Of a stretch of DNA of 31,849 nt, positions 1,862-22,660 are shown piece by piece. The notes beneath the pieces are model-generated. The model worked only from the letters and a program-made list of their open reading frames with translations. It did not search any database and was not told where the DNA came from. The stretch's first letter is position 1; every line of letters begins with the position of its first letter. Origin of the DNA: a virus; the IMG/VR virus record IMGVR_UViG_3300045999_005095, positions 1-31,849 of that record; one strand, given 5' to 3'. The position numbers and the translations under genes were made by a program.

Positions 1862-2166
1862 CCGTCCACCGGCAGCAACGCCACCGCCTCGCTCCAAGGG
1901 ATCACCTCCACCGCAGGCAGCAGGACGGCCTGGTCGGCCGCTTCCCACATCCCCTGTAGCAAGCCTCCCGGCCCCACTTCGGTCAGCACATCCGCGCACA
2001 ACATCAGCCTGCCGTCCGTCAGAACGCGAGGCATCGGCACGCAGTTGGTGGTGCCGTGTTCGGCGTGGAGTTCCGCGAGCCTCGCGGCGAGTTGCGGCGT
2101 GAAGACCAGCGCCAATTCTTTGGCGTCGGCGTCACTGATCGGGAGCGTGAGGTCGGAGAGGGTCAC
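1858..2166 (-). CDS. Hypothetical protein, last gene of the late operon
   Basis: 102 residues starting with GTG at 2166, whose G is shared with the TAG stop of the large LamG protein (TAGTG), so translation is probably coupled. It has a short acidic N-terminal helix region, then a segment with two Cys (TTNCVPMPRV, RLMLCADVL) and a Gly-rich turn; no transmembrane segment or signal peptide is visible. I do not recognise the family. Its position directly after a tail-fibre candidate would suit a small fibre chaperone, but this is only positional. The TAA stop overlaps the integrase TAG on the other strand, leaving no room for an intergenic terminator. Confidence 0.6.
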   Translation of the reverse strand: MTLSDLTLPISDADAKELALVFTPQLAARLAELHAEHGTTNCVPMPRVLTDGRLMLCADVLTEVGPGGLLQGMWEAADQAVLLPAVEVIPWSEAVALLPVDG

Positions 2167-4553
2167 TAGACGTTCCTCGTAAGCGCGTTTTGGAACGCCT
2201 GTATGGCGGTGTAGTAACTCGCGGTCTGGGCGTCACTCAACCCTGCTCCGATGGAGTATCCAGCCATAAGACCGTTGTAATATTCGACAGGCCCGTTTCG
2301 GGCGAATACGAAGAAGGGGCTCGCGCCGGTCGTTTCGGCGGTGCTAGTGGCGTTGGTCCCAAGCGACACTGCATCGTCGTAAAGCGTAAGGAGCGCCGTA
2401 CTGGTACGGCTTGCGAGAATTAGGCCGCCGTTTGTGTTGGTACGGTTATGTGCAACTGCGCTGTTTGCCTTGCCTAGTTCCGTCTGGATTCCGTAGTTCG
2501 GCGCAGACGAGCCAGACAACTGAAGAAACAGCCGATAGCGGTCCGTCACGCCGTTTAACAGTACACCGACCAGAGTCCTTGCCGACGCAATGTTCTGCGT
2601 TCCCCGAATGTACGCCGCTAAGTGGCAGTTGGCGGCACCGGGCAACTGATCGACGTTGAAGCCGGTGTTGAGGTATTTACTCGTCCCGTTCCCCAGCAGA
2701 CCGCCACTCGCCCCCGTCTCAACGTAGTCGCCCGAGACAAAAGGCCCATTGTTCGTATCGGTGGCATTCCCGTACTGCGTCCCGCCCAGCGACGGCCCGC
2801 GATACAGCGGCACCAGACACGCCTCAAGGCCGGTGCCGCAGAAGAGATTGAGGCGGTAGAAACGATCCCGAATCCCAGCCGCGTCGATGGCTGTGCAGAA
2901 CGCATTCACCGCCGTCGCCGTAGTGGACGAGACGGTGCCGCCGTTGGCGTAGACGCGGTTCACCCAGTCTTGGGCATCGGCGTTGCTGACGATTGGGGCG
3001 AGCGTGATGCCCCACTTGGCGGCGAGGTAGCGTTCGATGTGCTGGCGTTCACTGCCAGACAGCGTGCGAGCATAGACGAGAAGTTCCGCAACCCGGCCGT
3101 TGTATAGAGACGTATTTGTAGACCGCCCAAGCGCCCCAACCGTAAACCTGTCCACGCTCAATGTACCGATTGTCTGCGTTACGGACGAGACAACGGCGCC
3201 GTTGATCGCGAGCGAGCGAGCCGTCTCGCTGGAGACGCCAGCCATCATGTATTTCTCACCGCCTGCGCGGACGGCAGAAATCGCCTGATCGCCAGTCGCG
3301 TTAGTGTCCCGAAGCCAGTATGCTGGCGTTCCTGTATACATCGCCGCTAGTGAACTTGAGCCATTCGACGGCCCTGCTGACGCGACCACAACGGCGCTTG
3401 ATGTGCTTGGCGTAACGACGGCAATCATGGACGCCGACTGATCGGCGCTGTTGAACACAGTCGCCGCTGCGTCCGCGCGGAGATGATCGTCGGAGCCGTC
3501 AAACGACAGCGCCGACTTGGCTGCAAAATAACTAGCAATCGTCGGCCTGCTCCCGGCCGTCGCCTGCGTGGCGTGCCTGTTGTTCCCAGACTTGTCGCGC
3601 CAATACCCCACCGGATCGTTGGTCGCCGTTGCCTGCGCGTGGACTCCGCTGATCCCCCATTTCGCGGCGAGGTAGGCTTCGACGCGGGCGCGGTCGGAGG
3701 TGGAGATGACACCCTGATAGAAGATGATCTCCGCTATCGCAGCAGGCGCACCACCGCCGCCGAAGTTTCCGATAGTTAGGTCAAATGAGGCGTTCGTTGC
3801 AGCAGCCGCGTTCGCGGCAGTGTTGGTCGCGCCGGACAGGACGCCGTTCTGCCTCGCCAGCAACCGCGAAGCCGCTGTCGCGTTGGCGTTGTCCATGACA
3901 GCGGACATGATGCAGAAGGAGTTGGCCGCAGTGAAGAAGTCGTTTTGGCTTAACGATGACGTTGAGTTTCCGCTGACGCCGCGACTGACTGTGAATTGCA
4001 GGCTGTTATTACGCGATACGCTGGAGCGATCATCCATGAAGATGGAGACGCCCGTATTGCCAGATGTGTTGTTGGTGTTGTTGAACAAGTACCGGATGCC
4101 GTCCGGGTTGCTCGTCGTTGCTGGCTTCAGCACAACAAACATGGTGGCGCCGGTGGCGTTATGCAGATAATTGAACGCCGCAGTGCTGCTGCCAAAAACA
4201 AGCGAATCGGTGTCATCAAACTCTATGGTTGCGCGTCCATTGAGGCTGGATGCAACCCGCTGCGGCCTGTTGGCCGATACAGCCTGCGATGCTGCGGGAG
4301 AGCCAGCCCCGCTCTTGTCTCTCCACTCTGAAACATTGCTGCCAGAGAGCGTCATGCTGTTCAAGTCATCCGCATCAAGCCACAACGCGCACCCACTGAT
4401 CTCCGTAGGTGCCGACACCGCCGTCACCGGCCCAGCGTCGGTGGTGTAGAGCGACGAGGTGTCAGCCGCGTCCAGCCAGAGGGCGAGGCCAGAGATGCTA
4501 CGCGGGTCGAAGCCCGAGGCACGGGGCCGCAGGAGGCGTTGATTCATTCCCAC
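2166..4553 (-). CDS. Large LamG/concanavalin-A-like protein, probable tail fibre or receptor-binding protein
   Basis: 795 residues; the GTG at 4553 has AGGA about 8 bases upstream, and an ATG two codons later (4547) is an alternative. The protein contains lectin-like LamG modules. ISGLALWLDAAD starts at residue 20 and EISGCALWLDADD at 51. WRDKSG occurs at 77 and 318, and the module-closing motif YLAAKWGI at 294 and 509. The order suggests one LamG module inserted into another. Residues 520-795 are a separate C-terminal domain (AQDWVNRVYANGGTV...FYRLNLFCGTG). LamG jelly rolls bind carbohydrates, which fits attachment to a host surface polymer. It follows the holin-like gene by 3 bases. No signal peptide or membrane anchor is seen, as expected for a virion protein. 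The virion role is inferred from position and domain type. Confidence 0.8.
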   Translation of the reverse strand: MGMNQRLLRPRASGFDPRSISGLALWLDAADTSSLYTTDAGPVTAVSAPTEISGCALWLDADDLNSMTLSGSNVSEWRDKSGAGSPAASQAVSANRPQRVASSLNGRATIEFDDTDSLVFGSSTAAFNYLHNATGATMFVVLKPATTSNPDGIRYLFNNTNNTSGNTGVSIFMDDRSSVSRNNSLQFTVSRGVSGNSTSSLSQNDFFTAANSFCIMSAVMDNANATAASRLLARQNGVLSGATNTAANAAAATNASFDLTIGNFGGGGAPAAIAEIIFYQGVISTSDRARVEAYLAAKWGISGVHAQATATNDPVGYWRDKSGNNRHATQATAGSRPTIASYFAAKSALSFDGSDDHLRADAAATVFNSADQSASMIAVVTPSTSSAVVVASAGPSNGSSSLAAMYTGTPAYWLRDTNATGDQAISAVRAGGEKYMMAGVSSETARSLAINGAVVSSVTQTIGTLSVDRFTVGALGRSTNTSLYNGRVAELLVYARTLSGSERQHIERYLAAKWGITLAPIVSNADAQDWVNRVYANGGTVSSTTATAVNAFCTAIDAAGIRDRFYRLNLFCGTGLEACLVPLYRGPSLGGTQYGNATDTNNGPFVSGDYVETGASGGLLGNGTSKYLNTGFNVDQLPGAANCHLAAYIRGTQNIASARTLVGVLLNGVTDRYRLFLQLSGSSAPNYGIQTELGKANSAVAHNRTNTNGGLILASRTSTALLTLYDDAVSLGTNATSTAETTGASPFFVFARNGPVEYYNGLMAGYSIGAGLSDAQTASYYTAIQAFQNALTRNV

Positions 4554-5293: not shown

Positions 5294-5848
5294 CTATACC
5301 ACCATTGTAGCGGCCAGTAGCCGGCTCATTGCGGCATCGACGGCGGCCTGGAGCGCCAGAATGCCGCCCCCGTTGACGATCTCGTCGTCGACGTATTCGT
5401 CGGGGATGCCTCGCTCGCTCTCATGGCTCGCCGTCTCGCCATCCAGGACGCCGAAGCCGGGACGCACCACCCGCCACACGACGCCGCCGCGGGCCTTGAT
5501 GGCCGCCGCCTCGTTGGGGAAGCGGACGTCGGTGATGCAGAGGTCGCCTCCGGCGGCCTCTGCCCGCTGCATCGTCGCCATGACCCAGATTTCGGGATGG
5601 ATCATGTTTCGGCCCCAGTCGGTGCCGAGGGTCTGAAGGAGCCTCCGGGGCGAGCAACTGATCCACCCCAGCGTGTTCTCCTTCCGGGAGCGGTCCTGCA
5701 ACTGCTCAACAGTCAGCCCAGTGATCGCCGACACGGCGTCATAGAGCGGGTCGGCGAACGCTAGCGGCACGAACCGATGCTCCAGGCACAACCGCGCCGC
5801 AACCGTGTTCTTCCCCGCCCCGGCGGCCCCGCAGAGTCCAATGATCAC
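5294..5848 (-). CDS. Deoxynucleoside monophosphate kinase
   Basis: 184 residues, starting at GTG 5848, which overlaps the deaminase stop (GTGA). The P-loop GAAGAGKNT is at residues 7-15. SPRRLLQTLGTDWGR at 66-80 and ITDVRFPNEA at 105-114 match the T4 gp1-like dNMP kinase family, where the QxxGTdxxR and DvRfxxE segments form the NMP site. The enzyme phosphorylates dNMPs to dNDPs, supplying DNA precursors during phage replication. Directly downstream of a dCMP deaminase it would help channel dUMP-derived nucleotides. Early-type metabolism genes embedded in the late operon are unusual but known in phages. The family assignment is fairly secure; which bases it accepts cannot be told. Confidence 0.85.
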   Translation of the reverse strand: MIIGLCGAAGAGKNTVAARLCLEHRFVPLAFADPLYDAVSAITGLTVEQLQDRSRKENTLGWISCSPRRLLQTLGTDWGRNMIHPEIWVMATMQRAEAAGGDLCITDVRFPNEAAAIKARGGVVWRVVRPGFGVLDGETASHESERGIPDEYVDDEIVNGGGILALQAAVDAAMSRLLAATMVV

Positions 5849-6348
5849 AGCGTCATCTCCTCGCCGTCGAACTTGATCGTCACCCCCAGCGGCTCCGCGA
5901 GCCACCGCATACTGACGTTCGCCTCGCGGAGCATGGCCTCGGCCTTGACGATGCTCGACGTCCACCGCTCCGGCGTCGCGGCCCGTGGCTTGACATGGCC
6001 GACGACCTCGGTGATCCCGGCCACGATGATCGCCCTGGCACAGTCCATGCAGGCGAACCAGGGGCAGTAAAGCGTCGCCCCCAGCGTCGGCGTGCCGACG
6101 CGGGCGGCCTGATAGATCGCCATCCGCTCCGCGTGTTCGATGTATTCGTATTTCGCCGGCCGCGTGAGCCGATCCGGCGCCGCCCACACGCCCGCCGGCA
6201 CCTTGTTGACGCCGACGCAGACGTAGGCCGCGGCCCGCGGCACCAGGATCGCGCCGTTCTGGGTGTGCATATCGTGGCTCCCCGCAGCGGCCTCCTGGGC
6301 GGCGATGCGGAGCCAGTCGAGCGGTGTGTTGTGTAATTGGGTAGCCAT
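5845..6348 (-). CDS. Deoxycytidylate (dCMP) deaminase family protein
   Basis: 167 residues, ATG at 6348 overlapping the preceding stop (TGATG). The zinc site of the CDA superfamily is visible: His72-Ala-Glu74 (EHAERMAIY) and Cys100/Cys103 (CPWFACMDCARAI). The Pro normally next to the first Cys in PCxxC is replaced by Ala, while an earlier CP is present. The C-terminal VVGHVKP region and overall size match dCMP deaminases (ComEB-like), which convert dCMP to dUMP for dTMP synthesis. A free-cytidine or modified-base deaminase remains possible. It is coupled to the dNMP kinase, which supports a nucleotide-pool role. Confidence 0.85.
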   Translation of the reverse strand: MATQLHNTPLDWLRIAAQEAAAGSHDMHTQNGAILVPRAAAYVCVGVNKVPAGVWAAPDRLTRPAKYEYIEHAERMAIYQAARVGTPTLGATLYCPWFACMDCARAIIVAGITEVVGHVKPRAATPERWTSSIVKAEAMLREANVSMRWLAEPLGVTIKFDGEEMTL

Positions 6349-6521
6349 CAGTCCCTGACCTCAAGCCATTTCCGCAGCCGCTCGTTCTCGCCGCGAAGAC
6401 TTTCGATCTCTTCTGCGGCCGACTCAATCCAGGACTCAAGAACGAACTCGTAGCATCCGATGTCCTCGGTACGATGTTTCAGCAGGTCGCGGAGGACTTG
6501 AAGGATGTCTTTTTTGTTCAT
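6348..6521 (-). CDS. 57-residue helical protein between phosphoesterase and deaminase
   Basis: A short gene read directly from the sequence. The ATG at 6521 overlaps the phosphoesterase stop by four bases (ATGA), and its TGA at 6350-6348 overlaps the deaminase ATG (TGATG). The product begins MNKKDILQVLRDLLKH and ends ESLRGENERLRKWLEV, a leucine-heptad-like coiled coil with a single Cys23. Perfect stitching into both neighbours and a clean helix-coil composition support it being real. It has no enzymatic motif and may be a small oligomerisation or adaptor protein. Function unknown. Confidence 0.7.
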   Translation of the reverse strand: MNKKDILQVLRDLLKHRTEDIGCYEFVLESWIESAAEEIESLRGENERLRKWLEVRD

Positions 6522-7675
6522 TCCGCCCCCGCAACGTGCATCGACACCAGCCCGCCCTCGGGGCGGTACAGGAACGTCTCCATCGCTCGCCGCGAGCCGA
6601 TGAATCCGTTCTCGGCGTGCCAGTCATCCGGCGGGCAGAGGGCCGGGGCCGTCCTGACGATCACGCCGTCGATTGTTTCGATGGGGCGTTGCCACTCGGC
6701 GGCCTGCGAGTGGTAGTGGCCGGTGTGCCACTCCCGGCAGACAGACTGGCTCCAGTGCCGCGGCTGCTCCAGCGCCATGATCTGGCCCAGTTTCCGCTTG
6801 GCCTTGTGGCCGTGGCAGAAGCCAATCAAGTTTTTGCCGTGTGTCGCGTACTGCCGGCCCGTCCACGCCCCAGACACGGTGACGCGGCCGTCGTTGCGAA
6901 ACCGTTCCGCCAGCACTCGCTGAAAGGCCCAACTCAAGGTTTCGTCGTGGTTTCCGTTGACGACCAAGACGTCTGTCGGCGCCGTCGAGGCCGACCGCTC
7001 GACGATTTCCAGCAGGCAGTCCCAGCCGATCTGGAGCATCTTCTGAAGCCGGCCGTCCCGCTCCAGTTGCGTGCCGGAGGTGGTCTGGCCCCGGGGGTTG
7101 TCGTAGTGCAGTAGATCCCCCAGGAACGCGATCGTTCGGCGGGCCGGCTTCATGGCGTCGCCCACGGCCAGCAACTCGCCCGACGCCTGCCGCACTACTT
7201 TCTCGGCGATGTAGAGATCGTAATTGCTCCCGCCCGTCGTTCCCTGGTAGGCGTAGTTGCCAAAGTGGACGTCGGACACGACCACGACTTGCCAGAGGCC
7301 GCTGCGCTTCGCCGGCTTCGGCACGGCCTTGCGGCGCAGGTCTTTCGTCGCCGCCTTGATCATCGCCTCGACGCACTCGCGGACCCCAGGCCCAGCCTTG
7401 GGCTTGAGGCGAACGAAGACGCGGTGGAGTTCGACGGTCCCGCCACTTCCGTCGCCGCACTCCCACTTGGTCGCTTCAGACGAGGCGACTTCGTATGCCT
7501 GCATATCCGCGCCGATATGCCGCAGGAGGTCTTCGACGGTCTTGATCCGCCGCGAGGTGCTTTTCGCCTCCAGCGTGTCGCCGTCCTGCCGCTGCGTGAC
7601 CTGCTCGGAATCCGCAGCCGGCGTCTCCGCAGGCAGCGTCGAGAGGATCGCAGCCTTCAGCCCCTTTGCAGCCAT
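6518..7675 (-). CDS. Calcineurin-like metallophosphoesterase
   Basis: 385 residues, ATG at 7675 with CAGGAG 7 bases upstream. All five metal-binding blocks of the family are present: SDVHFG (Asp135, His137), FLGDLLHYD (Asp187), VNGNHDE (Asn242-His243), CHGH (His288) and HTGHYHS (His320/His322). Residues 1-125 are an extra N-terminal region with a helical segment and no recognised domain. These enzymes are two-metal phosphodiesterases or phosphatases; phage members are often DNA-processing nucleases related to SbcD/Mre11, but protein or nucleotide phosphatase activity cannot be excluded. It opens the nucleotide-metabolism cassette and its start overlaps the preceding small gene by 19 bases. 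Confidence 0.88.
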   Translation of the reverse strand: MAAKGLKAAILSTLPAETPAADSEQVTQRQDGDTLEAKSTSRRIKTVEDLLRHIGADMQAYEVASSEATKWECGDGSGGTVELHRVFVRLKPKAGPGVRECVEAMIKAATKDLRRKAVPKPAKRSGLWQVVVVSDVHFGNYAYQGTTGGSNYDLYIAEKVVRQASGELLAVGDAMKPARRTIAFLGDLLHYDNPRGQTTSGTQLERDGRLQKMLQIGWDCLLEIVERSASTAPTDVLVVNGNHDETLSWAFQRVLAERFRNDGRVTVSGAWTGRQYATHGKNLIGFCHGHKAKRKLGQIMALEQPRHWSQSVCREWHTGHYHSQAAEWQRPIETIDGVIVRTAPALCPPDDWHAENGFIGSRRAMETFLYRPEGGLVSMHVAGAE

Positions 7676-8191: not shown

Positions 8192-8575
8192 CTATTGGTT
8201 GTCCACGGCTACTTTGCCTATCTTCTCGCGGGCGCGCCGGCAGGCTTTCCTAACCAGCCACTTCGCCCCAAGTTCGCTCCACGGCAGAATCGTCTGGCGC
8301 TTGGCGAGTCGCTTGGAATGCTCCGTTCGCATGGCCTTGATGATTTCCGGCATCCCCGGCCCCTCGCACCAGTCTGGGCCGTTGGTGTTCATCTTCTTCG
8401 CCATTGCGTTGCACGAGCAGCCGAGCGTGGCGACGATCCCGAGCCAGTCCTTCAGGAGCGCCTTGAGTTCCGTCCCCGGCCCGGTTTCTGGCATATGGGC
8501 CGCTGCCGGCGCGCCGGTGTGGCAGTCGCGGTAGACGGCCTCGCCGTTCTCGTAGGTTTTTTCGACGCAACTCAT
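8192..8575 (-). CDS. Cys-motif small protein, function unknown
   Basis: 127 residues, ATG at 8575, two bases after the stop of the large Cys-rich protein. After GPGTELKALLKDWLGI there is a tight motif GCSCNAMAKKMNTNGPDWC (Cys53, Cys55, Cys70), followed by a helical basic C-terminus (KWLVRKACRRAREK). The CxC...WC spacing suggests a small metal or Fe-S binding knuckle. I recall similar 'PGTELKxLL...GCxCxxxAxxMxxxGxxWC' sequences in phage-related proteins, but cannot confirm this. Adjacent to a protein with 40 N-terminal cysteines, it could assist folding or disulfide handling; only the position supports that idea. Confidence 0.68.
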   Translation of the reverse strand: MSCVEKTYENGEAVYRDCHTGAPAAAHMPETGPGTELKALLKDWLGIVATLGCSCNAMAKKMNTNGPDWCEGPGMPEIIKAMRTEHSKRLAKRQTILPWSELGAKWLVRKACRRAREKIGKVAVDNQ

Positions 8576-8577
8576 GG

Positions 8578-10989
8578 TTATGCAATCGTGAGCGTGGATG
8601 TCGCCGAGTTATAGGTGCCTGTCTTCGTCGTTCCCGTCAGCGTAACGGTCCCGTAACTGTTGACAGTAGGTCCGGCAAGCAGGACATACGCTGCGCCGGA
8701 CGACGGCTCTCCGGAAAACGCCACCGTTAGCGTGTTGCTCGTAAACGTCGCCGAGGTCACGAGGCCGCCGGGATTGGTGATCGGCTCGTTGACGATCACC
8801 GTGCCGCCAGTGATCGACATACTCCCAGTCATGCTGTTTTGGTTGAGCGTCAGCGTGCCGTCTTCATTGACAATGCTGCCCGCGCCAGACAGGTCGGCGA
8901 CTGTGAGCGAGCCGCTGCCGTCCAAGGTCAGCGTCCCTGTGACGGTCAGTTCGTCCAAGGACTGCGACGCAGGCGGGTCGCCCGGTTCCTCCTGCACTGT
9001 GAGCGTGGCGGATGCGGCAGTCACGGCGGTCGCTGGATCAATACCGAATGGCGGACTCCTCACCAAGCGAAGCGTGGTTCCGGCTGAAAGCACTATTCCG
9101 CCGCCGGCCGACAGGACTGTCTCTCCAACAACCGCAGTTCCGTATCGAATAAATACCGTACCGCTCGTAGAGAATGTCCCGTCATAATTCTGCAACATAA
9201 CTGTGCCAGCGAAGCCGTTGGCGCCGATGGTCACGTTATGCGTGGCGGGGGCAAGGTTTGTGGCGCCAGCCCAGCGGTTCTCAAAGTAAACTGTGCCGCC
9301 ATCCGCGGCCACCAGCGTCACATCGCGGCTCATTCGGACATTGCCGCCGGAGAACGTCGCCGTACCGGAAGTGTTGGCGCCGCCGATCAGAACCACCTGC
9401 GCCCCCGCCGATGCCCTCACATCAAAACTTGCAGTCGTATTGACGTTTTGTTCCAAAAGTAGCGCCGCGAACCCCCCTGCCCCTGCGGCCGTGTCCCCGA
9501 TTGCGATCGTACTTCCGACCGCTGCGGCATTTGCGACCTGCATGGTGCCGCCCTTGACGGTCAGCGTGCCAAAGAAGTCCCTGCTGGTGGCGTTCATTCT
9601 CCACAACCCGATGCCTTCTTTGACAACGTTGCAAACGTTGCTGCCAGCGGGGTCGCCGATTCGTCGGATTTCGTTGAGGTGCGTGCTGGAGCCGGCCAGC
9701 GTCAGCGTCCTGTCGCAGTTGCCAGCGTGCGTGACGGCACTCGTCAGCACGAGCGGCCCCATGCCGTCTGCGCGAATCTCGCCGTCGCCTCGCATTACGA
9801 TGTTGGCGTTGCTCGTGTGGCCTGGGCCGTCGTAGGTCATCACCGTCTTGCACTCGTACAGGCAGTTGCCCAGCCAGATTGTGATGTTGTTGCAGCCAGA
9901 GAACTTCAGCGTCTCAAGGTCGGTCGCCAGTTGATCCCAGCACACCTTGATCTTGAGGTCTTGGAAGTTGGAGCCGCACGGCACCGGCTCGACGTTGAAT
10001 GCGTCCCAGCACAACGGAAACACAATCGTCTCGCGGACGCACCGATCGTATGGCGTCGGGATATACAACTCGCCGTGAACGCGGACGGCTGAACTAGATT
10101 CAAGTTCCACCCGCACCCAAACCGTATCGCTGATCGGCGGCATCCGCTTAGTGCGTGGCTGGTAGAATGTCAGGCCAGCGGCCTTGCTGGTTTTTTCTTC
10201 GCAGCAGCAGGCGTCAAACGGCGGTCGGCAACGAGCGTCCTGCGGAAACCCCGGCTCCGTGCATCCAAGGCACTCCGTCGTTCCTACGCCCTGGAACTCG
10301 CCGCCGACTCCGTCGCAGTTCGCCTTCGTTGTCGGCGACGACTCGTGCAGGACGTAGCCGTTTTCCTCGTCATAGACGCAACACGCCCCCACGCATGTGG
10401 CTTCGTCGCAACTGTTGCCCACGCCGCGAATGAGCGGCGCAGGACACGTCTGCTGGTCAATGACTTCACACGATTCCCCATCTGGGTCACAGCACGGCAC
10501 CGGACACCCGCGATCACAGCAGCCGCCAAGAACCTCACCGGCGCATTCGGAAGGCTTCTTGTTCTGGCAGTTGCCGTTTTCGCAGCACCGGCCCGGACAC
10601 TCCCCCCACTGGTCGCGAAACACAATGCCGTCGCACGCTGGGCAGCACAAAGACGCCGCGACGTTTTCGGCGCCCTCAATGCCGCCGTTCTGCGCGGGGT
10701 CCATGAACTCCGGAGGCACGCACCCGCAGCACTGATCGACCCCGTCACCCCACCGCAGGAACGTCCAACCCTCCTCGCATGGTGCGTCGGGGTCGTTCTC
10801 TGGACTCCACAGTTCGTCGCCGCAGCAGTACCCAGGCTCCGTCTTCCACTCGTCGTTGCAGCACTCGCCCTCGTCGCAGTGGCACTCTCCGTTGCAGCAA
10901 GTGCCGCCACGAACGCACTCGCACCAGAACCGAAATGTTTTGACAATCAGGCCGTTGAACACGGCCAACGCGCCGTTGATTACGAACAT
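8578..10989 (-). CDS. Cys-rich beta-repeat surface protein, probable tail-tip adhesin
   Basis: 803 residues, ATG at 10989 overlapping the previous gene by 10 bases. Residues 23-263 hold 40 cysteines (about 17%), with around ten CC doublets. Repeats such as VGACCVYDEENG...GGEFQGVGTTECLGC match the GACC...C...GGxFxGxGTxC...C pattern I associate with planctomycete secreted proteins. Residues about 270-390 form a linker domain (KVCWDQLATDLETLKFSGCNNITIW). From about 395 to the end, short Gly/Thr-rich repeats (GTLTVKGGTMQVAN, GTLTLDGSGSLTV, GSMSITGGTVIV) resemble passenger-type beta-helix (PATR-like) units. There is no signal peptide. Placement just after the tail-tip genes supports a receptor-binding or host-adhesion role, which is inferred. 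Confidence 0.82.
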   Translation of the reverse strand: MFVINGALAVFNGLIVKTFRFWCECVRGGTCCNGECHCDEGECCNDEWKTEPGYCCGDELWSPENDPDAPCEEGWTFLRWGDGVDQCCGCVPPEFMDPAQNGGIEGAENVAASLCCPACDGIVFRDQWGECPGRCCENGNCQNKKPSECAGEVLGGCCDRGCPVPCCDPDGESCEVIDQQTCPAPLIRGVGNSCDEATCVGACCVYDEENGYVLHESSPTTKANCDGVGGEFQGVGTTECLGCTEPGFPQDARCRPPFDACCCEEKTSKAAGLTFYQPRTKRMPPISDTVWVRVELESSSAVRVHGELYIPTPYDRCVRETIVFPLCWDAFNVEPVPCGSNFQDLKIKVCWDQLATDLETLKFSGCNNITIWLGNCLYECKTVMTYDGPGHTSNANIVMRGDGEIRADGMGPLVLTSAVTHAGNCDRTLTLAGSSTHLNEIRRIGDPAGSNVCNVVKEGIGLWRMNATSRDFFGTLTVKGGTMQVANAAAVGSTIAIGDTAAGAGGFAALLLEQNVNTTASFDVRASAGAQVVLIGGANTSGTATFSGGNVRMSRDVTLVAADGGTVYFENRWAGATNLAPATHNVTIGANGFAGTVMLQNYDGTFSTSGTVFIRYGTAVVGETVLSAGGGIVLSAGTTLRLVRSPPFGIDPATAVTAASATLTVQEEPGDPPASQSLDELTVTGTLTLDGSGSLTVADLSGAGSIVNEDGTLTLNQNSMTGSMSITGGTVIVNEPITNPGGLVTSATFTSNTLTVAFSGEPSSGAAYVLLAGPTVNSYGTVTLTGTTKTGTYNSATSTLTIA

Positions 10990-11483
10990 GCGGTTTCTGT
11001 CGATATGGGCAGCGAGAGCGTCGCCGTCTCGCCGGGGTAGGGAATCCAGGTCAGGATGCGCGTGAACTCGATGGCGGCCGTGGTCATAGTGACGGAGACG
11101 AACACGGCTGTCTCGTGGTGCTGGACGTTGAGGAGATGCCAGTCGGCCGTGGCTCCGGCTGGTTCAAGAGAAGAAACCTTGCCGATGTAGGCAACCTGTT
11201 CGTCGCAGGCGTCGCCAATTGTAAACAACTGGTTCGTGGCGACGACGGTGTTCGGGGTCGAAGTCACGCCCTGAAACGTCAGGGTCTTGGTCTCGTTGAT
11301 CGTCCACGAGCCGGTGAAGGTGCAGGCGCGGATCTGCTTTCCAGAAGACGCAGCCGGCATTTCCTCAAACCGCGTCGGAATCCGGGACGTACCGTTCTGG
11401 TACGGCGTCGAGTCGACCCGCTTCACCACGCTGATGATGCGGTCGGTCAATACCGGGCCAAACGTGTTGCCCTTCTCGGCCAT
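10980..11483 (-). CDS. Tail-associated hypothetical protein
   Basis: 167 residues, ATG at 11483 sharing a base with the upstream stop (TGATG). The sequence is beta-rich without membrane or signal segments (ACTFTGSWTINETKTLTFQ, VFVSVTMTTAAIEFTRILTWIP). It lies between a 350-residue tail-tip candidate and the Cys-rich adhesin, so it is probably a minor tail or tip protein. I recognise no family. Two cysteines near the centre and one near the end are unlikely to form a motif. Coupled translation with both neighbours suggests a fixed stoichiometry. Confidence 0.6.
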   Translation of the reverse strand: MAEKGNTFGPVLTDRIISVVKRVDSTPYQNGTSRIPTRFEEMPAASSGKQIRACTFTGSWTINETKTLTFQGVTSTPNTVVATNQLFTIGDACDEQVAYIGKVSSLEPAGATADWHLLNVQHHETAVFVSVTMTTAAIEFTRILTWIPYPGETATLSLPISTETACS

Positions 11484-12535
11484 CAGACAATGTCCTGGAT
11501 GCGAACGCCCATGTTCACGAAGTTATTGCCGAATGGAATCGCCCCTTGCGTGATGTATTTCTTCGTCAGCACGCCGTTGGCCTGGACGTCACGCGGGGTT
11601 CCGTCGAGGTTGAGGGCGACGGGCAACGCAGACGGCCGCTGCATAAACCTCTTGCCGTTGAGGCTCGCAATCGGAATTACCGCCCGCACTTTCTTGTTGG
11701 CCGTGTTTTCTGTGAGCGCGAACGGAACGACCACCTCGCCGTCAACGTGCTGCAGGTTCAGCCCCTCGTTGTATACATTTGCGCCGTTGAGATTCTTGTT
11801 GATGATGTTGAAGCCCTCGATCACCACTCGTTTCCACCATCCGTCGTATGGATTGATCGCAAACTCATATGTTCTGGTGAAGCCTCTGTAGATCAGCGTT
11901 CCGAACGCTTCCACGGTCGGGCGGACGTTCACACCGCGCAGCATACAAGTGTACGGGGCAACATCCATGCCAAGGAACGTAAGCCGGTCGGAGTTGATAA
12001 ATCCAGACTCCGTAAGCCGACTTGTGGGATAGTTGTCGAACTGCTCAATGGAAATCGTCAGCATGGACGAGAAGTTCGTAACGCCGTCGTACCTGTCTTT
12101 TACGGGATTGACAGCCGGCGCAAACTGAGGCTGGACGGGGTTGCCGTCCTCGTCTTCGATCTCTGCCCATTGCGTTGCCGGCGTCTCGACGAGACTTGAC
12201 GAAATCGAGAACTTGGCTGGGCGAATGTCAGGCGGCTGGTTGTTTGGGTCGTTTGCGGTGCTGCTTCCAGGCGTTGCGCGGTAGGTCGCCGTCACGACGC
12301 GCACGACACGAGACTCGCCCTCGGCTCGCTCCGAGAACGATACGCACGGGAGCGTGCTGTTGACGGGGTGCATATCCCCGATCTTCACGCCGATCGCAGA
12401 CTGGATGTCGTAGCCCTCGGACGGCGAGTTCAGGATGATTCTGAACGTCCGCACCGAGACGTCCGCAACGGCGCCGCCGTCAGCCGATCGCTCGTTAGAC
12501 CCGCCGGAGGTGATTTCCTTGACTAACTTTGGCAT
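11483..12535 (-). CDS. Probable tail-tip/baseplate structural protein
   Basis: 350 residues, ATG at 12535 with GGAGGG 6 bases upstream. It is a mixed alpha/beta sequence with an N-terminal DVSVRTFRIILNSPSEGYDIQ segment and a long beta-rich C-terminal half (GTLIYRGFTRTYEFAINPYDGWW, VRAVIPIASLNGKRFM). Position, two genes after the tape measure, is where distal-tail and tail-tip hub proteins usually lie, but no distal-tail motif is recognisable. The role is positional. The family may be specific to phages of this host group. Confidence 0.62.
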   Translation of the reverse strand: MPKLVKEITSGGSNERSADGGAVADVSVRTFRIILNSPSEGYDIQSAIGVKIGDMHPVNSTLPCVSFSERAEGESRVVRVVTATYRATPGSSTANDPNNQPPDIRPAKFSISSSLVETPATQWAEIEDEDGNPVQPQFAPAVNPVKDRYDGVTNFSSMLTISIEQFDNYPTSRLTESGFINSDRLTFLGMDVAPYTCMLRGVNVRPTVEAFGTLIYRGFTRTYEFAINPYDGWWKRVVIEGFNIINKNLNGANVYNEGLNLQHVDGEVVVPFALTENTANKKVRAVIPIASLNGKRFMQRPSALPVALNLDGTPRDVQANGVLTKKYITQGAIPFGNNFVNMGVRIQDIV

Positions 12536-12537
12536 CT

Positions 12538-12906
12538 TCAGCCCTCCGTGATGTCTACCCGCAGCCTCGTGCCGGCCGCGCCAACCGCGGAGTAGTTAGT
12601 GCCGGCCGCCATCCGAAAGACCTGCGGCTCGCCGGCGCGCAGCGTGCAGAACGGCGCGAACGATCCGCCCGCCGTGATACCGATCTGGGCCGTGGACGAG
12701 GTGGCCGTGGATAGGTTTCGCAGGAAAGCCAAGCCGACGCTCGACAGGTTGGCCGTTGGGATAGAGACTGCGTTCGTCGTGAGCGTGAGCGTGAGCGACT
12801 GCAGTCCAACGCTGTTCATGGTGGCCGTGATGTTCGACACCGCCACCTGATTGACGAGGTTCTCTTTGTTGACGGTCAGAACGATTCCGTAAGAAATATC
12901 TGGCAT
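12538..12906 (-). CDS. Small beta-rich tail protein
   Basis: 122 residues, ATG at 12906 with AGGGGG about 5 bases upstream and only 2 bases after the tape measure stop. The composition is Thr/Ser/Ala/Val-rich with alternating strands (ATMNSVGLQSLTLTLTTNAVS) and a C-terminal RAGEPQVFRMAAG...RLRVDITEG. This form, VxA-rich strands ending in a hydrophobic 'RVDI' strand, is common among small phage tail and decoration proteins. No enzymatic motif is present. Likely a tail-surface or tail-tip component; family not recognised. Confidence 0.6.
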   Translation of the reverse strand: MPDISYGIVLTVNKENLVNQVAVSNITATMNSVGLQSLTLTLTTNAVSIPTANLSSVGLAFLRNLSTATSSTAQIGITAGGSFAPFCTLRAGEPQVFRMAAGTNYSAVGAAGTRLRVDITEG

Positions 12907-12908
12907 GA

Positions 12909-15900
12909 TTACCCCCTGATTTCGACGATGGCGTTTTGGTCTTGCTTGCGCAGTTCATCGAGCGACTGCTGCAGAATCTCTGTCTGCTTCTGCAGTTCGA
13001 TGAGATTGACGTCACGATTCGGGTCGTCGCCGCGGAGCAAGCGGTTGAGTTCCCGCTGGCCGTCCATGGTGTTGGCGTCGGCGACATTGAGCGCCGCCCG
13101 CGACGGCCCCTGAAGCAGCGCGTTGAGCCGCTCCTCGCGGAATCCCATCACGAGCGGCGCAACCTGCTGCGCCCTCTCAAGTGCCAACTGGTTCATCTTT
13201 TCGTTCCGCATGGCCTGCGGTGCGTTGATGCGATTCATTTCAGCGACAAGATCCCGTGCCTGCTGGGCGGACTCCCTGGCCGCCCGCTGGGCTGGAGTCA
13301 TCGCCAGTTCGCGGCCGCGGTCCTCGGCAGACTGCCGCTGCTCGATCCTTGTGCTGTTGTCCCTGGCCGCACGAACGGACGGCGATTCCTCGATCTGACG
13401 GTCTACCTGATCCTGGAGGCGCCGCCGTTCTTCGATGAGGCGCTGCCTGTCTTGCGGCGTGCCGGCCCCGGAGGCCAACTGCTCGTCGATCTCGCGGAGC
13501 CGCTTGAACGTCTGGTTGAGAGGGTTGTTGGCATCTTGCGCAAGCCGCTCAAGGCGGTCTCGCTCGCTGGCGACGGCCTCTTCCACCTTTCTGTTGGCGG
13601 CTCTCTGCTCCTCGACGTTCTGCCTTGCGCGATCCCTGTCTGCCTGCGTCGGCAGTGCCGCGCCGCGGCCTGGGGCAAGTCCTCGCCGGCGGACGTCGTC
13701 GTCGCGCTGCTGCGCTGCCTGCAGATTGCTCTCGGCCTCGGCCGTGGCGCGGGCAAGGGCTTCCGTAAACCGCTTCAGGCCAAGCGTGGCGGCCTCGATC
13801 GCTTTCATCTCCTCATTGATGGCCGCGATCTCTCGGTCTGCGCGCCTGCGAACGAAGACGCTATCTGGCCGCGCGGAAACTTCCGAATCCACCTTCGCCC
13901 TTCTGGCGTCAAGTTCCCTGATCCGGCGAGCAAGTATGCCCTGGTCTGCGCCAGCGGCCTGAAGATTTGCCTCTGCCCGCTGCCTTCTCGCATCCAGAGT
14001 CGACTGTGGGTCAAGGATCCGGCGCTGCTCCAGTTCGCTGGCCTGGGCCTGGGCTAGCAACCTCTGCTCCCTGCTTCGCTCGATGCGCGCTCTTGCTTTG
14101 CTTACTCGCTCGTCGCGAAGCGCGGCGTCCTCTTGCGTCAGGCCGCTTTCGGCAAAGTCTTTCTGCGCGGAGCGAATCTCGTTTTGCGCAGAGTCGATCT
14201 CTTCGGCGAGACTGTCGAGAAGCCCCTGGAGGGAAATCGCGGTGGGTACGCTAGATTTGATTGCGTCGGCTACCTGCCTCTGCGACTCTTCGATGGCAAT
14301 GGCAGCGGCGTTCGCCGACTTGAAGATGTTCTGAATTGCCTTGTCTGCCTGCAGGCTCGCCGGAAGCCGCAGCGACTCAAGCAGCGACGTCAGCGCCGTA
14401 ACATCTTCTCTCGCATTCGTTATTTCGACTGCGTCGCCGGTAAAGAAGTCGAGGGCGCCGATATTGCGGGAGGCGGTTTTCTGCCGCTCTCTGATTCTCT
14501 GCTCAACAATACGCGACAGCGCGAGCGGATCTGATCCGGCGGCGTCGAGTTCCCTTGCCGCGCGATCTCTCCTTGCCGCTGCCTCTCTTCTGGCCTGCTC
14601 ATCAACCAGACGCACCGGGAACAGCCCGCCCTTTTCTTCAGAGAGCCTTGCGAACTCATTGTCTCGGATGCCTTCGATGACTGACTTGCGAACCGCATCT
14701 GCGGAAGGCGCGGCGGCGCCAACCCTAGCACGGATTGCGGCGCGTTCCTTTCGGCGAGATTCCTCGATTTCCCGCAGGATCGCTACACGCTGGCCGCCGT
14801 CAGAGGTGGCGTCAAGACGCTTTCTAAGACCCGCTTGCGTCGCTCGCTCGCTCTGTACCTGCGGATCGAGGAACGAAACGCGCTCCTCGCGGAGTTCTTT
14901 TTGCTTCCTGTCTATGTCGGCGAGTTCTTTTGTGAATGCCCTCGTAGACTGCCCAGCCGAAGAAAACGCCTTGCGGGCAATGGAGTCGCCGAGCGACTCA
15001 AACGCTTGCGCAAGACCCTCGACAAGCGACTTCTGCCGGGACAGGGAGTCATTCAGGGCTTTCGCCTTGTCGTCAGCCAACTCCGAGCCGGTTGCATACT
15101 TAAGGATCGACGTAATGACCTGACCGCCGATTACGGCCGACAGGCCGAGGAACAAGCCGGTCGTTGCCGAGAGTCCCGGAATCAGGCCGGACTGGCCAAG
15201 CAGCAATCCGAGTTGCGTGATGTTGTTGCCTACCGCGCGGAGTTTGTATTCCAGGCCGCCCGTCGCCGAGATGAGGTCATCAATCGCGAAAAGCCCCTGC
15301 TGAAACGCCAACTGCGCCACGGCGGCGCCGCCAACGCCGAACGAGCCGCGGTTCTTCAGGTTTCGCTCCGCAATGGCCCTGACCCTGTCGACGCCCATTC
15401 CCGCAGAGCCGTCGGCTCGCGACGAGTCAGCCACTGTGTTCAAAAATGCGTCGCTGCGCTTTCTAGCCGCGAATTCGACGGCTTTCCTGGCGCGATTTCT
15501 GCTCTCCTCACTCTTGAACTGGCCGTCGGCTATTTTCTGCTGCTTTATGGCGAGTTTTTCAAAGAACGCCAAGTCGCGCTCGATGGCCTGCTCGACCGAT
15601 CGGCGGCCCACAGTGTTTCCGGACTCAAAGTTGCCGGCCAGTTGCCGGCCAGTTGCGATAAAACTCGCAGCGCGCTCAAGGTCTGTTCCGAGTTTATCGC
15701 TGCGGCTTCCGGAGATGGTCAGGAACTGGTCAAACCTCTTGCGGGCAGTTTCGGCAGACTTGAGTTTCGATTCAAACTTGTCGATCACCGGCAGCAGCGA
15801 CTCAAGTTTTGCCTTGTAGTTATCAAGCCCCAGCGTGCCGCCGGCGGTCGTTTTGGCATCAAACGCGGAGTCAAGAGTGGCGTTGGCGTCTGCGGCCAGT

Positions 15901-17255
15901 TTTCTGATGCTGTCGAACTCGCCCGCTATTCCTGCGTCTTTTAGTCCTTTCACTCTGGACGAAAGATCTCCCACCCTGCCGGCAACACCGCGATTGAACT
16001 CCTCCCTAGCGAGAGACAGATTCTCACGAAGGCCAATTGCCGCCAGCCTGCGAGTGCCGGGATTTCTCTCCGACAAGATCTGGTCTCGTTGCTTTTGGGC
16101 GTCCTCGCGAATCTTGGAGATTTCTCTTTCTGACTCCGTCCTGATGAGGGCGTCAGCCTTGCCGAACCCTTCTTTGCCGAACGCCTTTGTGGCGTCCGCT
16201 GCGGCAAGCGCATCTATAGCCAATTTGGCCTTCTTGGCCGACACCTCGCTGCGGTTGAGTTGCTCGATCACTCGCCCAACGGACGCGATCAGACCCTCAA
16301 ATCGCTGGTCGTCTCCATCTCGCAGCCTCGCCGAAAGTGTGCCAAACTTGTCTGTTAGTTGCTCGACCTGCGACACGGCCTCGGGCGATATGATCTGCTT
16401 GATCTCGGCAGAGGAAATCTCCCTCCTGAACGACATATTGGTCGCTTCCTGGATGCGAACCAGGGCGTCAAGTCGCTGCTGCGCCACTCCTCTTGCCGTC
16501 AGCGTCGCAGGATTTTCTCCTTCATTTGCGACCCGAATCTGCGCGGCCGAAAGCCTTGCCGCGGCGCGCTCGATGAGGTCAGCGTTTCGCTCTGACCTCA
16601 CAGACAGGTCGCCAAAGACCTCGCTCCTGGCTCTCGCAGGAATTTCCGATGCCTTCTTCCGCAGCGCCAGCGCGTCTGTCAGCGCGCCTTTGGCTCGTGG
16701 ATTAAAGAAGTCCGCGCCGGTGTTTTTTGCCTGCAGGCTACCCGCCAGCCGCTTGAAGTCATCGGAGATGGCCGTGGCCCTTCCAAGGGCAACAAGCCTG
16801 CGTCGCAGGGCGTCGATCCGCTGTCCTGCGGCGTCGAACGTCGCCGTGCCTTCGCCAATCTCCGCGAAGAGGCGCTGAAATCCGTCCTGAATCCTCGACA
16901 GTTCCGGATACAGGCTCGACTGGACGGATGTGGCGAACCCTTCGATTTGATTCTTGAGGGCGGTCAGCGGCTTGCCGATGTCCTCAAGGACGCGAAACTG
17001 ATCCTCAAGTCGGCGTGTATTCGGGAGTCCGGCCCCTACTCCCCTCGACTGCAGGTCTTCAATCTGCCGCAGCGTCCGCTGGAACCGCTGCAGCCTAGTC
17101 AGCGTGCCGTCGAGTGCCTGCGTGTTGAGGTTGAACTGGATGCCGCGTGCCTGGCGCGCAAAATCCTGCAGTTCACGCCGGGACTCGCCAATGCGGCGAG
17201 TGAAGTCCTGCGTGTTCGCAGTCAGAACGGCAGAGATTTTGCCGAGCAGGGCCAT
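12909..17255 (-). CDS. Tail tape measure protein
   Basis: 1448 residues, ATG at 17255 with AAGGA 6 bases upstream. Most of the protein is charged helix rich in Arg, Glu, Gln and Ala, typical of tape measures. A hydrophobic Gly-rich stretch lies at about residues 635-725 (LAFQQGLFAIDDLI, LGLLLGQSGLIPGL, LFLGLSAVIGGQV), as expected for the segment that enters the host membrane. It sets tail length as the tube assembles around it. At about 0.15 nm per residue the tail would be about 215 nm, a rough estimate from the general rule. It directly follows the gpG/gpGT chaperones, the canonical order. Confidence 0.95.
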   Translation of the reverse strand: MALLGKISAVLTANTQDFTRRIGESRRELQDFARQARGIQFNLNTQALDGTLTRLQRFQRTLRQIEDLQSRGVGAGLPNTRRLEDQFRVLEDIGKPLTALKNQIEGFATSVQSSLYPELSRIQDGFQRLFAEIGEGTATFDAAGQRIDALRRRLVALGRATAISDDFKRLAGSLQAKNTGADFFNPRAKGALTDALALRKKASEIPARARSEVFGDLSVRSERNADLIERAAARLSAAQIRVANEGENPATLTARGVAQQRLDALVRIQEATNMSFRREISSAEIKQIISPEAVSQVEQLTDKFGTLSARLRDGDDQRFEGLIASVGRVIEQLNRSEVSAKKAKLAIDALAAADATKAFGKEGFGKADALIRTESEREISKIREDAQKQRDQILSERNPGTRRLAAIGLRENLSLAREEFNRGVAGRVGDLSSRVKGLKDAGIAGEFDSIRKLAADANATLDSAFDAKTTAGGTLGLDNYKAKLESLLPVIDKFESKLKSAETARKRFDQFLTISGSRSDKLGTDLERAASFIATGRQLAGNFESGNTVGRRSVEQAIERDLAFFEKLAIKQQKIADGQFKSEESRNRARKAVEFAARKRSDAFLNTVADSSRADGSAGMGVDRVRAIAERNLKNRGSFGVGGAAVAQLAFQQGLFAIDDLISATGGLEYKLRAVGNNITQLGLLLGQSGLIPGLSATTGLFLGLSAVIGGQVITSILKYATGSELADDKAKALNDSLSRQKSLVEGLAQAFESLGDSIARKAFSSAGQSTRAFTKELADIDRKQKELREERVSFLDPQVQSERATQAGLRKRLDATSDGGQRVAILREIEESRRKERAAIRARVGAAAPSADAVRKSVIEGIRDNEFARLSEEKGGLFPVRLVDEQARREAAARRDRAARELDAAGSDPLALSRIVEQRIRERQKTASRNIGALDFFTGDAVEITNAREDVTALTSLLESLRLPASLQADKAIQNIFKSANAAAIAIEESQRQVADAIKSSVPTAISLQGLLDSLAEEIDSAQNEIRSAQKDFAESGLTQEDAALRDERVSKARARIERSREQRLLAQAQASELEQRRILDPQSTLDARRQRAEANLQAAGADQGILARRIRELDARRAKVDSEVSARPDSVFVRRRADREIAAINEEMKAIEAATLGLKRFTEALARATAEAESNLQAAQQRDDDVRRRGLAPGRGAALPTQADRDRARQNVEEQRAANRKVEEAVASERDRLERLAQDANNPLNQTFKRLREIDEQLASGAGTPQDRQRLIEERRRLQDQVDRQIEESPSVRAARDNSTRIEQRQSAEDRGRELAMTPAQRAARESAQQARDLVAEMNRINAPQAMRNEKMNQLALERAQQVAPLVMGFREERLNALLQGPSRAALNVADANTMDGQRELNRLLRGDDPNRDVNLIELQKQTEILQQSLDELRKQDQNAIVEIRG

Positions 17256-17258
17256 GCT

Positions 17259-17890
17259 TCATCCTTGAAGTTTCTGTAGTTCCGCAAACATCTCGTCCGG
17301 CGTCTGATGGGGCTTTGCCTGCGACGGAATAAAGATGTTTTCCTCTGGCACCCGCTTGTAGTTCCCACTCGCCGCCATCACCGTCCGACACAGTCGCGCT
17401 GTCTGCCACCAGGAGTCAGGCAGCGGCCACCGCTGGTCGTAGGCATACCACTCACTCAACTCCGCGGAGTCGCACTCCGTCAGCAGCCGCTTGACTGTCA
17501 TGCCTAGGGCCAACGCTAGGCGGAAATAGAACCTCCGCTCTGGTCGGTCAGTGAATCTTTTCCCAGGCTTTCCACAGCCTCCGACGTCAGGGCGTTGTGG
17601 CTCCACGCCTTCTCAAACAGCCGGTTGATCACCACGCTCGACTTCTTGCCGAGCAGGTCGAGGTCGGCATCGGCGAACAGGCGGTCGCCGGAGTCGTCGC
17701 ACAGCGTCAGCAGGAGGAAGCGGACGCGGAACGACTTCATCTTCTGTTCGGCGTAGGACTCCTCAAACGAGTCCCGCTCCAGGCCAGAGAGCGTCTTGAC
17801 GTAGACGTCACCGCCCCACTCGGGAACCTTGATCGCGTCGCTCAACCGAACGTCCTTCGCCGCCAGAATCGCAGCCTTGCTCAAAGCCAT
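17259..17890 (-). CDS. Tail assembly chaperone, frameshifted form (gpGT-like)
   Basis: Made from the gpG frame plus a second frame joined by -1 frameshifting at the GGGAAAA heptamer. Codons up to AAA (17890-17558) are followed by reading from 17558 again, to the TGA at 17261-17259, giving 110 + 99 = about 210 residues. The frame after the slip begins RFTDRPERRFYF and runs through GMTVKRLLTECDSAELSEWYAY, which resembles the DUF4035/lambda T segment (ELxEWxAY). In lambda and many siphophages the G:GT ratio set by the slip controls tail tube loading on the tape measure. A separate start at the internal ATG (GMTVKRLL, 17501) is an alternative but lacks a clear ribosome site. The tape measure start follows 3 bases later. 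Confidence 0.85.
17516..17890 (-). CDS. Tail assembly chaperone, unshifted form (gpG-like)
   Basis: 124 residues, ATG at 17890, 3 bases after the preceding tail-tube gene. The product contains DVYVKTLSGLERDSFEESYAEQKMKSFRVRFLLLTLCDDSGDRLF, the 'phage tail assembly chaperone' (TAC, gpG-type) style: a short basic N-terminus, a conserved L-x-x-x-E/D-R region, then an acidic C-terminal stretch. About 14 codons beyond the slippery heptamer the frame ends at TAG. It is located just before the tape measure and after the tail-tube genes, exactly where this pair sits in lambda-like phages. Confidence 0.85.
   Translation of the reverse strand: MALSKAAILAAKDVRLSDAIKVPEWGGDVYVKTLSGLERDSFEESYAEQKMKSFRVRFLLLTLCDDSGDRLFADADLDLLGKKSSVVINRLFEKAWSHNALTSEAVESLGKDSLTDQSGGSISA
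17558..17564 (-). promoter_or_regulatory. -1 programmed ribosomal frameshift heptamer
   Basis: Minus strand GGGAAAA, read in the gpG frame as CTG GGA AAA GAT. This is the canonical X XXY YYZ form with X=G, Y=A, and differs from the lambda heptamer GGGAAAG in one base. Re-reading one base back opens the T-like frame, which stays open for about 100 codons. The heptamer lies about 40 bases before the 0-frame stop, the usual geometry. Confidence 0.9.
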
Positions 17891-21744: not shown

Positions 21745-21935
21745 TTGTGCCTCTTCTTTCCTTGCGGCTGGACGGCCTTCTCGGCGCGAAGTTCCATGGC
21801 GGCGGTCTCTTCGTCGCGCTCTTCGACCTGCCGGACGAGGCCGCGGGCGAGCAGGACTCTGGCCATGCCGTCGCCCCAGTCAAACTCTTGGCCGACCTTG
21901 TAGCCGCCGAACTCCTTGACGATTTTGACTCTCAC
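21741..21935 (-). CDS. Small hypothetical protein between glycosyltransferase and connector
   Basis: 64 residues if started at GTG 21935, which overlaps the glycosyltransferase stop (GTGA) and has GGGG about 8 bases upstream; an ATG at 21950 would add five residues. It starts VKIVKEFGGYKVGQEFDWGDGMARVLLARGLVRQVEE, a short beta-turn-helix pattern, then a charged Lys-rich tail (AEKAVQPQGKKRHK). Similar short proteins often lie next to the connector in siphophages, but the family is not recognised. Confidence 0.6.
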   Translation of the reverse strand: MRVKIVKEFGGYKVGQEFDWGDGMARVLLARGLVRQVEERDEETAAMELRAEKAVQPQGKKRHK

Positions 21936-22660
21936 TTCACAAACCCCCATGCGCCCTCTGGCGGCGTCCTGTCGCTGTTCCAGAACTCGGTCGTGTGCTG
22001 CTGAACTTTGCCGCACTCCACGGTCCTGGACGGCCATGTAATCATCAGTTCGGCGTGGCCGACGCTGACGCTGGTGGCGATCCCCAACTTGTTCCCCGTG
22101 GCGTGAAACTTCTTCCAGAAGTAAATGTCCTCATCAACGTGGCCGCCGGTGAACGTCCCCTCGGCGTTGGCCTCGGCGAGAAACCACGGCTTCGGCATCT
22201 TCTTGATGGCTTCGGTGCGGATGAACGTGCAGCCGAAGTGGGCCGTCTCGACCAACTGCACCGGCTTGGAGAACCAGTCGTTCTCGACCGTTGTCTTGTC
22301 GTCAGAGGTGACCCCAGGCAGTGCGAACATCACTGTGTTCGCTTCCCGCTTGGTCTGGAGTGGCGCGATGGCGTCGACGCCGGAATACATCATCAGCGCC
22401 AGGAGCGCCTCGACGGTCTTCGCGGTGAAGATCGTGTCGTAGTCGATCGTCAGCACGACGTCGTGCGTGTCGATGACCTGCTCCATCGTCCGCTGCAGGC
22501 ACTGGCCAAAGAACGCCCCGGTGTATTTGATCGGGGCGATCTTGTGCGGCGCTAGCGCCTGGGAGATGCAGAAGAAATTATCCGTGAAGCCGAGGCGTGG
22601 CACGCTCATGAGAGCGGCCACCTTGACCTCGGCTTCACAATTACCAACGCGAACCAGCAT
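21932..22660 (-). CDS. Glycosyltransferase (GT-A-like) within the head operon
   Basis: 242 residues, ATG at 22660 with AAGGAG 6 bases upstream. GT-A hallmarks: an N-terminal beta-alpha unit (EVKVAALMSVPRLGFTDNF), then LTIDYDTIF with a DxD-type Asp73-Tyr-Asp75 for metal/UDP-sugar binding. An 'added helix plus Cys' segment TAHFGCTFIRTEAIKKM follows, then HVDEDIYFWKKFH (acidic catalytic-base region, around 175-186) and GHAELMITWP. There is no signal peptide and no membrane anchor, so it would act in the cytoplasm. Sitting between the capsid/decoration genes and the connectors, it could glycosylate a virion protein or a cell-surface component; the target is unknown. It is preceded by a hairpin that buries the ribosome site. 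Confidence 0.8.
   Translation of the reverse strand: MLVRVGNCEAEVKVAALMSVPRLGFTDNFFCISQALAPHKIAPIKYTGAFFGQCLQRTMEQVIDTHDVVLTIDYDTIFTAKTVEALLALMMYSGVDAIAPLQTKREANTVMFALPGVTSDDKTTVENDWFSKPVQLVETAHFGCTFIRTEAIKKMPKPWFLAEANAEGTFTGGHVDEDIYFWKKFHATGNKLGIATSVSVGHAELMITWPSRTVECGKVQQHTTEFWNSDRTPPEGAWGFVK

Follow-up and report, generated by a model that had tools for sequence, protein, structure and literature searches.

A protein made in the cytoplasm is not expected to form disulfides before lysis. What, then, is the function of a phage protein that is encoded behind the tail genes and contains 49 cysteines, and where does its cysteine-rich repeat come from? We address these questions for the window, that is, the whole stretch of viral DNA that we analyzed (31,849 nucleotides; IMG/VR record IMGVR_UViG_3300045999_005095). 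The protein is encoded by positions 8578–10989 and is called the adhesin here; the window features whose coordinates are given below are all on the minus strand.

Genome context and cysteine content

The window is a siphophage-type genome, with genes for TerS, TerL, portal, protease, an HK97-type capsid, connectors, and tail completion proteins. The genome also has a tail chaperone pair, two overlapping genes (124 and 115 residues; 17259–17890) that contain the heptamer GGGAAAA at 17564, a canonical slippery site placed correctly for a −1 frameshift, like that of the lambda G/GT tail chaperones. In Rhodococcus and Streptomyces phages, relatives of the first gene are annotated as tail assembly chaperones. 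Next come the probable tape measure gene (1448 residues; 12909–17255), which is assigned by length and position and has no family match, three genes encoding 167, 350, and 122 residues (10980–12906), the adhesin gene, and a small partner gene (8192–8575). This order is kept in siphophage relatives despite sequence divergence. Synteny in the first of the two phage groups described below places the adhesin gene among the tail genes of a tailed phage.

The adhesin gene is an open reading frame with an ATG start that encodes 803 residues, and approximately 30 viral contigs encode relatives. Exactly 40 of the 49 cysteines are inside residues 23–263 (241 residues, the head), so the count of about 40 in about 240 residues made in the sequence-only reading is correct. 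The remaining proteins of the window contain 97 cysteines in 9447 residues (1.03%); because these average 1% cysteine, the number in the head is far beyond chance (binomial P = 3e−35 for at least 40 cysteines among 241 residues). The head is acidic (45 Asp/Glu, 12 Lys/Arg, and 2 His). An alignment of the window protein with 12 divergent relatives shows conservation of at least 90% at 31 of the 40 head cysteines, vs 22 of the 201 other head positions; no other property of the head is as constrained as its cysteine pattern. A match to Ribosomal_L27 falls in a Gly-rich stretch and was rejected as chance.

Domain layout and the GACC repeat

The adhesin is modular: a short variable N-terminus, a di-cysteine β-hairpin head, a jelly-roll, and a PATR-type β-helix. 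The N-terminus (residues 1–22; 10924–10989), for which tail attachment is proposed and AlphaFold predicts a hairpin of low confidence, differs among the aligned and translated relatives (e.g., MFVINGALAVFNG, MTVIKFENGKP, MTQIFVKGD, MPCACCC); it is hydrophilic or Cys-rich in most of them (e.g., L041, L198, L040, and L037), and three (L173, 7899–11405; L175, 6732–10694; L186, 4177–4959) have a hydrophobic stretch (DPISLPLWLxAxxAxxxYPLG) together with a long insert in the head. The first part of the head (residues 23–132; 10594–10923) is recognized as di-cysteine β-hairpins by conservation, repeat count, and AlphaFold; it includes a 12-residue unit (CCxxxW...CC, e.g., CCGGVWRTGEGE) that occurs in tandem; the window adhesin has one full copy, and relatives have as many as six. 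The second part contains a first partial GACC unit (residues 133–151; 10537–10593; weak HMM match of 2.0 bits, up to 8.9 bits in relatives), a second partial unit (residues 164–199, CCDPDGESCEVIDQQTC...; 10393–10500; weak HMM match of 5.4 bits), and a full unit (residues 201–240, GACCVYDEENGYVLHESSPTTKANCDGVGGEFQGVGTTEC; 10270–10389). The jelly-roll-like β-sandwich (residues 264–385; 9835–10200) has seven cysteines, is kept in all of the relatives, and is predicted by AlphaFold to consist of strands; the PATR-like β-helix (residues 386–735; 8785–9834) is the proposed host-contacting part and the region in which we detect recombination (see below).

With an alignment of 12 sequences, AlphaFold models the β-helix confidently (mostly pLDDT 80–95) and the head poorly; when 18 sequences of greater diversity are used, pLDDT rises to 70–89 over most of the head. 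In this model, 7 of the 11 vicinal CC pairs are wholly within the predicted strands of short hairpins. The description of the C-terminal part as PATR-like needs one qualification: the β-helix is backed by AlphaFold, and PATR (PF12951) is over the Pfam cut-off in six of the seven relatives tested (L040, L167, L171, L173, L175, and L028), but the window copy scores 16.7 bits, under the gathering threshold of 27. The adhesin therefore resembles proteins with the PATR/autotransporter β-strand repeat (PF12951, TIGR02601) in having a β-helix with the same repeat; unlike PATR autotransporters, it has no autotransporter barrel and is found in a phage tail context. Fold searches of the PDB with the adhesin gave nothing at E < 0.001; the top Foldseek match is to the jelly-roll fibers of Ena endospore appendages (9i0y; E = 0.0076, TM 0.37 of target), which have a similar layout and a related PDB entry titled ‘disulfide-linked pili’, but this match is weak, Ena is from a different organism and has a different role, and the likeness is not evidence of kinship. 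A fold search of BFVD gave one marginal match, an uncultured phage protein named autotransporter-like (E = 9e−4).

Structurally, the head is best compared with galaxins and calcarins, which corals and sponges secrete (PMC2726143, PMC12419799); the ladder of di-Cys hairpins predicted for them fits the AlphaFold strands of the head. These proteins are also acidic and have di-Cys every 10–15 residues at the starts of short β-hairpins, and successive hairpins are predicted to be joined by disulfides (PMC12419799). The likeness is of layout, not of kinship: galaxins and calcarins are animal proteins, and no Pfam family matches any of seven phage heads at E ≤ 10.

The sequence-only reading had described the head as a series of GACC...GGxFxGxGTxC repeats of a planctomycete-like type. 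The full unit occurs once in the adhesin; two diverged half-units can be counted in addition, since residues 133–151 and 166–183 match weakly the first half of the unit only (CC..GxC......C), so several full repeats are not present. To find bacterial counterparts, we scanned a DNA pattern for the unit over one genome per species (84,980 species) and obtained at least 80 loci; the taxon shares that follow describe a sample, the matches listed. Among these, after removal of five that are spurious, 64 of 75 loci carry planctomycete titles, for the most part Phycisphaerae; the rest come from Myxococcota, another Deltaproteobacterium, Gemmatimonadetes, Bacteroidetes, Zixibacteria, a Peribacteraceae, a record titled Leptolyngbya, and three unnamed bacteria. 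This gave a first impression of broad planctomycete enrichment that the genome samples narrowed: the pattern is found in 7 of 61 sampled genomes of Phycisphaerae (seed included), 2 of 199 of Planctomycetota (seed included), and 5 of 189 of Myxococcota (a seed and one apparent chance match included). The repeat is thus rare in Planctomycetota at large, about as rare as in Myxococcota, and from the comparison of 7/61 with 2/199 the likeness is to a repeat centered on Phycisphaerae, not one that is found throughout the phylum.

Is the phage unit related to the bacterial one? An HMM built from 86 bacterial units matches residues 201–238 of the adhesin (P0001) with E = 3.5e−5, and a control of 200 shuffled heads gave no match at E = 10 or better; the test is partly circular, because the seeds came from a DNA pattern drawn from the motif. 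A position that the pattern left free is informative in another way: Gly is found two residues before the CC in 90 of 92 bacterial units and in 17 of 17 phage units (GACC...C...GGx[FW]xGxG[TS]..C). A fifth, middle cysteine (GxC) is present in 87 of the 92 bacterial units but is absent from the full unit in all 17 phage proteins, although it is found in the two partial units. No 12-residue CCxxxW repeat of the phage family is present in the bacterial GACC proteins examined, for which we found no named family. By eye, many of these proteins have signal-like starts and dockerin-like ends, and they mostly look exported; four of them (L086, L098, L122, and L082) have 96–128 cysteines and several GACC units each.

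The strongest of the alternatives that we consider is that the planctomycete likeness is convergence, that is, that extracellular proteins repeatedly acquire di-cysteine hairpins and that the head of the adhesin is not planctomycete-derived. It would account for a head with a single full unit that lacks the middle cysteine, for the absence of the CCxxxW repeat from the bacterial proteins examined, and for similar units in Myxococcota and other phyla; also, the calcarin study leaves multiple convergent origins of such proteins open (PMC12419799). The HMM match, the Gly that was not searched for, and the strong Phycisphaerae skew, both among the matches listed and in the genome samples, argue against convergence, so we regard it as a real possibility but not the expected outcome. 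Capture of the head repeat from a planctomycete, as the sequence-only reading proposed, is plausible as one direction of transfer; we find no support for its further suggestion of host-surface mimicry.

A two-gene cassette in two phage groups

Searches of viral contigs retrieve the approximately 30 adhesin relatives, which range from identical to 37–55% identity over the head and jelly-roll. No match to the adhesin, or to the head of one relative, was found in INPHARED phages or in plasmids, and a profile scan of genome contigs with the head alignment found no relative.

The partner gene (127 residues; CSCNAMAKKMNTNGPDWC motif) starts 2 nt past the adhesin stop. In every relative with downstream DNA the partner adjoins the adhesin, starting 1–2 nt after the stop or, in L040, overlapping it. 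The partner proteins have approximately 100–127 residues and share an N-terminal stretch (M[SAG]CxE...RxC...). Their C-termini are of two types, that of the window (CSCNAxAxxMDxxGxxWC) and a second (CxGC...CxxCGCP...CPVGKWG; phrog_13558, with a DUF6171 match under the cut-off); both types are present in both phage groups. The window partner has no family match, and every contig retrieved by searches with the partner either encodes an adhesin of this family or is a fragment of insufficient length to judge. We read the pair as a two-gene cassette, a putative exchangeable tail-tip adhesin and its accessory protein.

The relatives are found in two groups of phages. In group 2 (L040, L015, L037, and L171), the TerL, portal, and capsid proteins best match families other than those of the window, and no structural genes of the window are detectable, yet the same cassette is present. 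Exchange also occurs within the adhesin gene: approximately 560 bp of the β-helix of L015 (group 2) are 83–84% identical in DNA to those of L002 (group 1) or the window (84% over 568 bp for L002), but the heads are 39% identical as protein; therefore, recombination has occurred inside the gene. The match of L015 to L037 (79%), also of group 2, extends through the head. In a tree of head sequences, L040 falls with group 1 (82/85), but a single group 2 clade is not rejected (AU p = 0.23), so the test gives no significant support for repeated exchange of whole heads between the groups. The L015 contig (57,870 bp) has two related capsid genes (67% identical), one at each end; these may be a tandem pair in a genome that is circular.

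Unrelated phages are already known to exchange host-recognition modules; what is new here is this two-gene cassette and its presence in two otherwise unrelated phage groups. What the analysis itself establishes is the domain order, the conservation of the cysteines, the strict adjacency of the partner, the occurrence in two groups with different head genes, the recombination between these groups within the gene, and the likeness of one head repeat to the Phycisphaerae type. In our literature searches we found no description of this pair of genes and no described phage adhesin, made in the cytoplasm, with a conserved cysteine-ladder head (at least 30 cysteines). A published precedent is the tail fiber and chaperone of Alteromonas phages A5, V22, and P24, a host-recognition module that is common to unrelated phages (PMC10579305). 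Both consist of an adhesin and an adjoining small accessory gene; however, no cysteines are mentioned for the Alteromonas module (PMC10579305), the two are not known to be alike in sequence, and the accessory role of the window partner is putative.

As to the host, relatives of TerL are found in 19 of 392 Planctomycetota genomes, compared with 1 of 284 from Myxococcota, and the window has a TerS-to-chaperone block in common, at low identity, with one planctomycete contig; TerL and chaperone relatives of similar identity are also found in Firmicutes and actinobacterial phages. Searches of the 392 Planctomycetota genomes with head and partner models found no copy of the cassette; the head model gave two weak matches that look like isolated repeats and the partner model gave one. 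A planctomycete host is a reasonable guess and should be read as a guess, because no cassette is found in the 392 genomes and similar TerL proteins are found in Firmicutes phages. If the cassette is what we propose, it would allow phages of little-studied hosts, possibly planctomycetes, to be recognized from their sequence.

Proposed function and the state of the cysteines

The best explanation is that 8578–10989 encodes a tail-tip receptor-binding adhesin of an HK97-type siphophage, that 8192–8575 encodes a dedicated accessory protein, and that the pair moves between unrelated phages as a host-recognition cassette; we think that this is probably correct. The identity as a tail adhesin is inferred from the fixed place of the gene behind the tail genes and from its exchange between phages. 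In the proposed mechanism, the variable N-terminus would attach the adhesin to the tail, the acidic di-cysteine head and the jelly-roll would form the stalk, and the β-helix would contact the host, probably a planctomycete. The adhesin would be synthesized in reduced form, and cross-linking of the cysteine pairs after lysis would give a durable fiber; the partner may help in the folding, capping, or cysteine handling of the adhesin. If this is true, it poses a testable question, that is, how a phage builds and oxidizes a cysteine-ladder adhesin, and the redox behavior of so unusual a head is worth experiment.

The cysteines might instead bind a metal (zinc or iron), with the adhesin fully folded in the cytoplasm and the partner supplying or sharing the metal. 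A presumably reducing site of synthesis and the CxC or CxxC motifs of the partner (including the second type, with its resemblance to DUF6171) are consistent with this explanation; the cysteines of the head, however, are mostly vicinal CC pairs in predicted strands and not spaced CxxC knuckles, only two His are available, and the comparable animal hairpins are predicted to be joined by disulfides (PMC12419799), so we consider metal binding unlikely. We give about the same low weight to an extension of the adhesin reading in which the reduced protein would be loosely folded, the partner would guard its thiols or carry metal, and the di-cysteine ladder would lock after lysis, hardening or activating the fiber outside the cell, with the cassette circulating among unrelated phages that infect the same host.

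Least probable is that the protein, instead of being in the virion, is a moron-type surface protein that the infected cell or lysogen exports and displays, with disulfides permitted by the periplasm: the bacterial GACC proteins mostly look exported, the cysteine content would suit an oxidizing compartment, residues 1–16 of the window adhesin are hydrophobic (19-mer mean 1.62), and the hydrophobic N-termini of L173, L175, and L186 could be membrane anchors, which would count against a tail adhesin, but no charged n-region or evident cleavage site is seen by eye, the N-termini of most relatives are hydrophilic or Cys-rich, and the gene keeps its place inside the tail operon.

The start (MGMNQRLLRPRASG) of a LamG-like protein of 795 residues (phrog_10356; 2166–4553) in the window recurs in group 2 (L229, 8748–9599; L228, 15585–17129), so this may be a second module common to both groups. 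By eye, kinase-like, deaminase-like, and phosphoesterase-like genes (5294–7675) adjoin the tail region and are 72–98% conserved in L007/L008. A glycosyltransferase-like gene (21932–22660; under the Pfam cut-off) is located between the capsid and connector genes, with 43–45% identity to its counterparts in L003 and L042.
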